Assembly: GCA_020435295.1 (NCBI GenBank)
Contig: JAGQZV010000009.1
Coordinates: 1 to 38,837, forward strand
DNA length: 38,837 nt
From: Bdellovibrionales bacterium
GTDB taxonomy: Bacteria > Bdellovibrionota > FAC87 > UBA2466 > JACKAF01
Direction of reading: 5' to 3'
Positions 20,040-31,867 of this stretch are shown here, one piece after another; the stretch's first letter is position 1; each line of letters starts with the position of its first letter. Under the pieces are notes generated by a model that worked only from the letters and a program-made list of their open reading frames with translations, had not been told where the DNA came from and searched no databases. The position numbers were made by a program, and so were the translations under genes.

Positions 20040-20426
20040 CTAATGCAGCACGGCCGCTTTTTCTCCCACAAAAACCAAATTGTGGTGCTCGGCTTCAGAC
20101 TGCAAACGGTCCGCGCGCTGCTTTGCATGCGTCTTATGGTGTTTTACCTTGTCTTTGTGCCTTTTAAGTTGGCGTCTCAATTTCTCCGCCATTTGGTTGA
20201 CCGCGCCGTAGAGACTTGGCGCCTTAACCTCTGCATGGAGATCTGTCCCATAGGCACCTACTACATCACAGTGGGCAACGCTATCGCGCCTTCGACGCGA
20301 GAACGTTACGTGAATCATAGGGGCTTTTTTTGTGTACTTCTCAACAACCCCAAGGAGTTTCGCTTCCGTGTACTCACACAAAGCCGGTGATGGATCGAGT
20401 TGGTGAAATGCAAAACGTATAGACAT
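20040..20426 (-). CDS. hpf: Ribosome hibernation promoting factor, short type
   Basis: The start at 20426 is chosen because GGGGGAA lies directly upstream on the minus strand. The frame remains open further up but that part is not protein-like. The 128-residue product has the S30AE/YfiA fold: an N-terminal strand-helix, then MIHVTFSRRRRDSVAHCDV, a segment with AEVKAPSLYGAVNQMAEKLRRQL, and a very basic C-terminal tail. It would bind the 30S subunit and help stop translation in stationary phase. It is short, without the C-terminal dimerisation domain of long HPFs. The upstream region holds the unusual inverted repeats at 20493-20627. Confidence 0.9.
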   Translation of the reverse strand: MSIRFAFHQLDPSPALCEYTEAKLLGVVEKYTKKAPMIHVTFSRRRRDSVAHCDVVGAYGTDLHAEVKAPSLYGAVNQMAEKLRRQLKRHKDKVKHHKTHAKQRADRLQSEAEHHNLVFVGEKAAVLH

Positions 20427-20492
20427 GAGTTCCCCCTTTTTTTTGCTCGTGGTTAACGTTGTTGATGTTCGGTATTTTTCCGATTTGGAGAA

Positions 20493-20534
20493 GTTTGGGA
20501 AGAAAACCGGTTTTACCCAGATTTCTTCCCAAAC
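20493..20534. repeat. 13-bp perfect inverted repeat upstream of hpf
   Basis: GTTTGGGAAGAAA (20493-20505) and its exact complement TTTCTTCCCAAAC (20522-20534) flank a 16-base loop. Overlapping it is the 12-base palindrome AAAACCGGTTTT (20503-20514). It lies 67-108 bases before the hpf start (minus strand) and 58 bases or more before a small plus-strand ORF. It could be an operator or a 5'-leader hairpin. No run of U follows it as a normal terminator would need. Confidence 0.9.
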
Positions 20535-20561
20535 CTTTAACTTTCGCGTTTTAGCGATCCA

Positions 20562-20627
20562 GTCAGGCACTGTTACTTGGAGGAGCAACTTGTGTGCCAG
20601 TCCGCAGAGTTGTCTTTCGTGCCTGAC
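20562..20627 (+). promoter_or_regulatory. Inverted repeat enclosing an SD and start codon
   Basis: GTCAGGCAC (20562-20570) is complemented by GTGCCTGAC (20619-20627). The enclosed segment contains a strong SD, GGAGGAG (20579-20585), and a GTG at 20592. In addition, the first arm can pair with the GTGCC that directly overlaps the start codon (20594-20598). The two pairings are mutually exclusive, so an RNA switch or leader structure is possible. Confidence 0.5.
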
Positions 20628-20843
20628 ATAACAAGAGAAGCGGACTGGATGGAGATGGGATGTAACGAAATGCTACGAAACAAGGAGTTTTGGATAAGTT
20701 GTTTAAGTAGTTCAAGAAAATGTTTTCCGCCCATGTCATACCTCTCTCCGAAGCGCTTCAATGCCGCCTCTATATTGAAAGACGGTCGCCCGTACCGATT
20801 TGTTCCAAAACTATTTCATTCTGTTTCAACTTGGGCGCGTTAA
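20592..20843 (+). CDS. Possible small protein of unknown function
   Basis: GTG at 20592 is six bases after a near-perfect SD (GGAGGAG, 20579-20585). The frame gives 83 residues with several Cys and Trp and a basic C-terminal half, and no homology I can name. It is not clearly hydrophobic. If it is not translated, this stretch may serve as upstream control sequence for the sigma-54 promoter at 20857; it includes the palindrome GAAGCGCTTC at 20750-20759. Divergent from hpf. Confidence 0.35.
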   Translation: MCQSAELSFVPDITREADWMEMGCNEMLRNKEFWISCLSSSRKCFPPMSYLSPKRFNAASILKDGRPYRFVPKLFHSVSTWAR

Positions 20844-20856
20844 GTCCAAAAAACAG

Positions 20857-20872
20857 TGGCACTACTCTTGCT
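20857..20872 (+). promoter_or_regulatory. Consensus sigma-54 promoter
   Basis: TGGCAC at 20857, five bases, then TTGCT at 20868 matches the -24/-12 consensus TGGCAC-N5-TTGCW in all eleven fixed positions, with the required GG-N10-GC spacing. Transcription would begin near 20883, about 50 bases before the ATG of a small gene. It lies between two small ORFs. Confidence 0.8.
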
Positions 20873-20931
20873 TCTCTCTTGAAAGAGAAAGCCAAAACTT
20901 GAAAGCGAAAGCTAAGATGGAGGCCAAGGTT

Positions 20932-21174
20932 ATGGGCACTAAACTGGGAAGTGTAGCTGTTTACTCATGGGAGTGCATCGGCTTGGATGCTGATGAGCGT
21001 CAGTTGGCAGAAGAGATTGTTGAGAACGGCGCCGATGCTTTGGCAAAACCGGTCCACCAAGCGGAGCACCCTAGAAAGCCCGGCAGCAAGCGGCATGAGG
21101 AGTATGATCTCTACGCCGCACATGATAGCCACCGGTGGAGCCCAGTCACCCACTACCTGGAACCCTATTTGTAG
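20932..21174 (+). CDS. Small protein of unknown function behind a sigma-54 promoter
   Basis: This encodes 80 residues. ATG 20932 has GGAGG eight bases upstream; an in-frame ATG at 20917 has no SD. The sequence is acidic and then basic/His-rich (MGTKLGSVAVYSWEC... to THYLEPYL) with one Cys, no signal peptide and no membrane helix, so cytoplasmic. It sits behind a perfect sigma-54 site at 20857, and a 7-bp hairpin (AACCCTA/TAGGGTT, 21161-21178) spans its stop. I do not recognise the family. Confidence 0.55.
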   Translation: MGTKLGSVAVYSWECIGLDADERQLAEEIVENGADALAKPVHQAEHPRKPGSKRHEEYDLYAAHDSHRWSPVTHYLEPYL

Positions 21175-21283: not shown

Positions 21284-21357
21284 GCGCCCGTAGCTCAGCT
21301 GGTTAGAGCGGCAGACTACGAATCTGTAGGTCGGAGGTTCGACTCCTTCCGGGCGCG
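21284..21357 (+). tRNA. tRNA-Arg(ACG)
   Basis: Acceptor stem GCGCCCG pairs with CGGGCGC. The D arm is TAGCTCAGCTGGTTAGAG. Anticodon stem GCAGA/TCTGT encloses CTACGAA, giving anticodon ACG, which reads arginine CGN codons after A34 is deaminated to inosine. CCA is not encoded (the sequence after the discriminator G is CAT). The deaminase TadA is encoded at 28040. Confidence 0.97.
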
Positions 21358-21388
21358 CATTTCTCCTCGCACTGACAATTATTGCTCC

Positions 21389-31479: not shown

Positions 31480-31495
31480 TGGCACTCCAGTTGCA
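31480..31495 (+). promoter_or_regulatory. Consensus sigma-54 promoter
   Basis: TGGCAC (31480-31485), five bases, TTGCA (31491-31495): all eleven fixed positions match. Transcription would start near 31507, about 16 bases before the ATG at 31523. The downstream genes are a small exported protein, a TrpF-like protein and a Cu-ATPase. Confidence 0.82.
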
Positions 31496-31522: not shown

Positions 31523-31867
31523 ATGAAGTTTATCGTTCTTAGCCTAGCCCTACTACTTTGGGTTCAGTCCAGCGCAATGGCCTGTGGCGGCTGCAACAAG
31601 AGCAAAGCTGACAAATCGCCTCAAGCAACGGCTCCGACCAGTACCATTTCAGCTAATGCGAACGCTCCGGGCTCCACTCCGGCTCGCGAAATGGGCGCAC
31701 CTGTCATCCGTGGTCTCACGTCCAACCAACAAACAACGCGAGCTTTCTCATCAAGCTTTTTTGATTCCGTCGGCGAGCGGCTTCCAACAGCACGCCGACC
31801 CCGCGGTCTGGGGCAACGGGAGAGGGGTTTGCGGCAGGGCGGCGGTGCTTTGCGTAAGCCACGCTAA
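31523..31867 (+). CDS. Small exported Cys-containing protein, unknown
   Basis: The 114-residue protein begins with a signal peptide (MKFIVLSLALLLWVQSS) and cuts near AMA|CGGCNKSK, leaving an N-terminal CGGC motif. The rest is Ser/Thr/Ala-rich and disordered in appearance, with a basic C terminus. The AMAC site is an atypical lipobox. A GGGGGG SD and a perfect sigma-54 promoter lie upstream. CGGC could bind a metal such as copper, which would suit the CopA gene downstream, but this is a guess. Confidence 0.65.
   Translation: MKFIVLSLALLLWVQSSAMACGGCNKSKADKSPQATAPTSTISANANAPGSTPAREMGAPVIRGLTSNQQTTRAFSSSFFDSVGERLPTARRPRGLGQRERGLRQGGGALRKPR

Follow-up and report, generated by a model that had tools for sequence, protein, structure and literature searches.

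Divergent perfect sigma-54 promoters precede a ribosome-hibernation factor paralog and an orphan small-protein gene in a Bdellovibrionales bacterium

The question raised by this locus is whether a consensus sigma-54 promoter standing ahead of an 80-codon reading frame of no recognisable family marks a regulated protein-coding gene and, if so, under which conditions that gene would be expressed. The stretch of DNA analysed (the window) comprises 38,837 nucleotides of a contig from a Bdellovibrionales bacterium (GenBank assembly GCA_020435295.1); its features are collected in Table 1. In the plus-strand promoter, 10 bases separate GG (20858-20859) from GC (20870-20871), a spacing that places the predicted transcription start (+1) at about 20883. 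The GGAGG of the SD lies 8 bases ahead of the ATG at 20932, and a possible alternative ATG is found upstream, at 20917. The TGGCAC-N5-TTGCT promoter with its GG-N10-GC spacing, the SD and the ATG of the 80-codon ORF are all present where the original prediction placed them. Its estimate that the window should hold far fewer than one chance match was also sound, as base composition predicts 0.036 matches and the window contains three, at 20857 (+), 20584-20599 (-) and 31480 (+).

Table 1. Features of the divergent sigma-54 locus and of a third perfect site in the window.
Feature	Position	Strand	Remarks
Second S30AE/HPF-YfiA ribosome-hibernation factor paralog	20040..20426	-	128 aa, short type; ATG 20426
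Strong near-perfect hairpin	20491..20535	-	in the 147-nt predicted mRNA leader of the HPF paralog; z -3.78
Second perfect sigma-54 promoter TGGCACACAAGTTGCT, divergent	20584..20599	-	predicted +1 ~20573
Spacer between both sigma-54 promoters	20600..20856	.	~257-258 bp; proposed home of a shared enhancer
Sigma-54 (-24/-12) promoter TGGCACTACTCTTGCT	20857..20872	+	0 mismatches to TGGCAC-N5-TTGCT
80-codon orphan ORF (P0001)	20932..21174	+	ATG with GGAGG 20919-20923
tRNA-Arg(ACG)	21284..21358	+	110 bp downstream of the orphan ORF
Third perfect sigma-54 site	31480..31495	+	ahead of a small protein of exported type, 31523-31867

Across the genome, exact matches with the N5 spacer number 38, against 3.2 expected from base composition, while control patterns with an N4 spacer, an N6 spacer or the reversed motif gave 5, 2 and 4 matches, respectively. 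Exact matches are thus specific to the geometry required by sigma-54. Three to five false positives are expected among the 38, which leaves a chance of about 10% that any single site is spurious. On these numbers, the plus-strand match at 20857 could be a coincidence with no sigma-54 promoter behind it; we regard this as extremely unlikely, as the match is intergenic, in the right orientation and 49 nt ahead of an SD-bearing start codon, in a window where the chance expectation is a small fraction of one site. A second perfect site also faces it within the same intergenic region, and sites that face each other in this way are less likely to be spurious than any single site. The genome encodes RpoN once, along with about 14 strong and 4 marginal Sigma54_activat proteins. 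At 37 of the 38 sites, a reading frame of 40 codons or more begins no further than about 220 nt from the predicted start, although this is a permissive test; a leader and an SD can be made out at most of the sites, and nearly all of the 38 lie just ahead of a correctly oriented ORF. At the level of sequence, the consensus, its spacer-specific enrichment, RpoN with its activators, and the leader, SD and ORF all bear out the proposal that RpoN controls the small protein. Sigma-54 control of a small protein of no recognised family is thus well supported by sequence, and we infer sigma-54 dependence in the cell from the promoter sequence. Elsewhere in the genome, a sigma-54 activator domain (L048, G000:C325:8984-9484) is interrupted by one in-frame TAG stop and is possibly a pseudogene or an assembly error.

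The facing minus-strand site, which the original prediction had not mentioned, nor the gene behind it, matches the consensus TGGCAC-N5-TTGCW at all fixed positions (20599-20584), as does the plus-strand site (20857-20872). The product of this minus-strand gene scores 59.5 bits against Pfam PF02482 (cut-off 23.7) and 51.3 against NCBIfam TIGR00741 (cut-off 40.9), and matches HPF chains in the PDB. It is a member of the S30AE/HPF family, with a predicted role in ribosome hibernation, and is separate from the canonical hpf, which lies directly downstream of rpoN on another contig and whose product shares 24% identity with the paralog. The genomic link between S30AE proteins and sigma-54 has long been known, with hpf/yhbH found within the rpoN gene cluster in diderm bacteria (PMC3162934) and in Geobacter (PMC2725144), and the canonical hpf of this genome conforms to that arrangement. 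Unlike the rpoN-cluster genes, the paralog is preceded by a sigma-54 promoter of its own, and its 147-nt leader contains a strong hairpin. This hairpin is self-complementary, and none of 200 shuffled sequences was as stable; it has no match in Rfam and could be a cis-regulatory RNA element. In the relatives examined, HPF matches were mostly the rpoN-linked hpf, and a perfect sigma-54 site accompanied only the paralog described here.

The nature of the plus-strand product was considered in the light of its coding character and its conservation. The reading frame is open over 131 codons. Ranked by codon-usage likelihood against 80-codon stretches of neighbouring genes, the ORF is at the 33rd percentile, a level that only 4% of wrong-frame pieces reach. 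Searches against Pfam and NCBIfam models and PDB sequences returned no significant match, in agreement with the earlier statement that the protein belongs to no recognised family. Neither 59 relatives nor 368 genomes of the phylum yielded a homologue beyond chance, and scans of GTDB contigs and of viral contigs gave no match. The best hit in the 368-genome search (E value 4.6e-4 per genome) and the other weak hits were judged to be chance; several fall in low-complexity or shadow-like frames, one (L090) is in a frame resembling a nucleotide-sugar epimerase, and no convincing sigma-54 site accompanies any of them. The orphan and the HPF paralog both look specific to this lineage, a weakly founded statement given that no genome from the same family or genus was among those compared. 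With the orphan confined to this genome among those searched, conservation lends support neither to its link with the promoter nor to its translation. Relatives in the order also lack the coiled-coil lipoprotein gene that lies downstream.

This lack of homologues, the low confidence of a single-sequence AlphaFold model of the protein (pLDDT 58) and the tRNA-Arg gene that follows the ORF would fit a reading in which the plus-strand promoter is real and makes a small RNA or an untranslated leader towards the tRNA, the 80-codon frame being non-functional. We consider such an RNA product very unlikely, since GGAGG stands at the right distance ahead of the ATG, the codon usage is like that of real genes and the frame is open for 131 codons, while the region has no Rfam match and no strong structure was found in the plus-strand leader. 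The orphan is best treated as a real protein, its coding character being supported by the sequence. No export signal or membrane segment could be read in it, and it is most likely a small soluble cytoplasmic protein.

What might switch this protein on is suggested by the arrangement of the two promoters. We think it fairly probable that 20040-21174 is a divergent sigma-54 pair, from which one activator directs expression of the HPF paralog (HPF2) and the orphan under stress or in stationary phase. Here we infer a shared activator, an inducing signal and a role for the orphan, as follows. The signal, probably starvation, stationary phase or another stress, would act on an activator (EBP) encoded elsewhere; this protein would bind the 257-bp spacer, and its ATP hydrolysis would open both sigma-54-RNA polymerase complexes. 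Both promoters would then be on together, giving HPF2 from the minus strand and the 80-residue protein from the plus strand, and the orphan would have its role in the dormancy or stress state that HPF2 serves. Stress, starvation or stationary phase is favoured as the inducing condition because an HPF paralog stands behind the facing sigma-54 promoter. The original prediction had offered a stress, motility or nitrogen-linked response; the first of these gains from the neighbouring gene, and the other two have no local support, as no flagellar or nitrogen gene adjoins.

Activation at sigma-54 promoters depends on an AAA+ protein, whose binding site usually lies 80-200 bp upstream. This biology, together with the back-to-back placement of the promoters, is the reason for assigning the putative activator site to 20600-20856. 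Neither k-mers nor dyads across the spacer and the upstream regions of the 38 promoters rose above random controls, and for this reason the shared enhancer stays a proposal. A palindrome at 20750, GAAGCGCTTC, was considered as an activator site and set aside, as it is not common to the other promoters. Around the minus-strand promoter, at 20557-20650, lie interleaved inverted repeats (GTCAGGCAC/GTGCCTGAC, CCAGTCCGC/GCGGACTGG and ATCCAGTC/GACTGGAT), which are possible protein-binding sites; their folding was not tellingly better than that of shuffled sequences.

Divergent operons under sigma-54 and a single EBP have been described in Desulfovibrio vulgaris, for the 'orange protein' and T3SS operons (PMC4641369). 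As in those operons, two sigma-54 promoters are placed back to back at the present locus and share one intergenic region. The locus differs in that the activator gene of the D. vulgaris T3SS pair lies inside one of the operons, whereas no EBP gene was found in the window; no binding motif was found here, and the gene content is unrelated.

Two real promoters could also be wired differently. They may answer to different activators, or the orphan may be unrelated to ribosome hibernation, with adjacency reflecting a shared intergenic region; the orphan would then serve another sigma-54 branch, possibly one linked to the envelope. We hold this to be possible but rather unlikely. The predicted targets as a whole point in its direction: an export-type hydrophobic N-terminus, called by a crude hydropathy rule, is present in 24 of 38 sigma-54 targets and in 59 of 167 control genes (Fisher p = 0.003), and the predicted targets include fliL-fliM and one response-regulator EBP. 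The exported-protein enrichment and fliL-fliM are like the regulon expected of sigma-54 as a controller of the 'bacterial exterior' (Francke et al., 2011; PMC3162934), and the failure to find a common activator motif fits separate wiring too. By contrast with that theme, both genes at 20040-21174 appear to be cytoplasmic and fall among the minority of targets that are not exported, which argues against an envelope-linked role for the orphan, and the co-regulation of some Desulfovibrio divergent pairs by one activator argues against separate switches.

The reading that we favour, a single activator acting on both promoters, makes the pair look like an ordinary activator-switched stress unit with one lineage-specific protein. 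The sigma-54 regulon type itself is well described, and what is new is an orphan gene within a known kind of regulon. If the two genes are co-activated, a dedicated hibernation factor and a small protein would be placed directly under an enhancer-switched sigma factor, providing a specific example of sigma-54 governing translation dormancy besides the cell exterior, and the orphan would become a candidate for a new ribosome- or stress-associated small protein. A stronger version, which we regard as doubtful, is that the orphan acts with the HPF paralog on dormant ribosomes, the two forming a sigma-54-switched hibernation module separate from the housekeeping hpf.

Several other sigma-54 sites were observed in passing. 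The small protein downstream of the third perfect site in the window has an N-terminus resembling a signal peptide and contains a CGGC motif. Elsewhere in the genome, two adjacent genes (L026:2970 and 3631) encode similar-looking exported Cys/His-rich proteins, and a separate perfect sigma-54 promoter belongs to each of them. Paralogous genes for TPR membrane proteins (L017:2997 and L022:955) carry an identical sigma-54 promoter, TGGCACCTGGATTGCTCT, spacer included, which may be read as a within-genome sign of promoter maintenance. A second divergent pair of perfect sites, 116 bp apart, is located at L031:7936-9336, between genes for a phosphoribosyltransferase (PRTase) and a host-attachment/baeRF-family protein, and is possibly a second stress-type sigma-54 unit.
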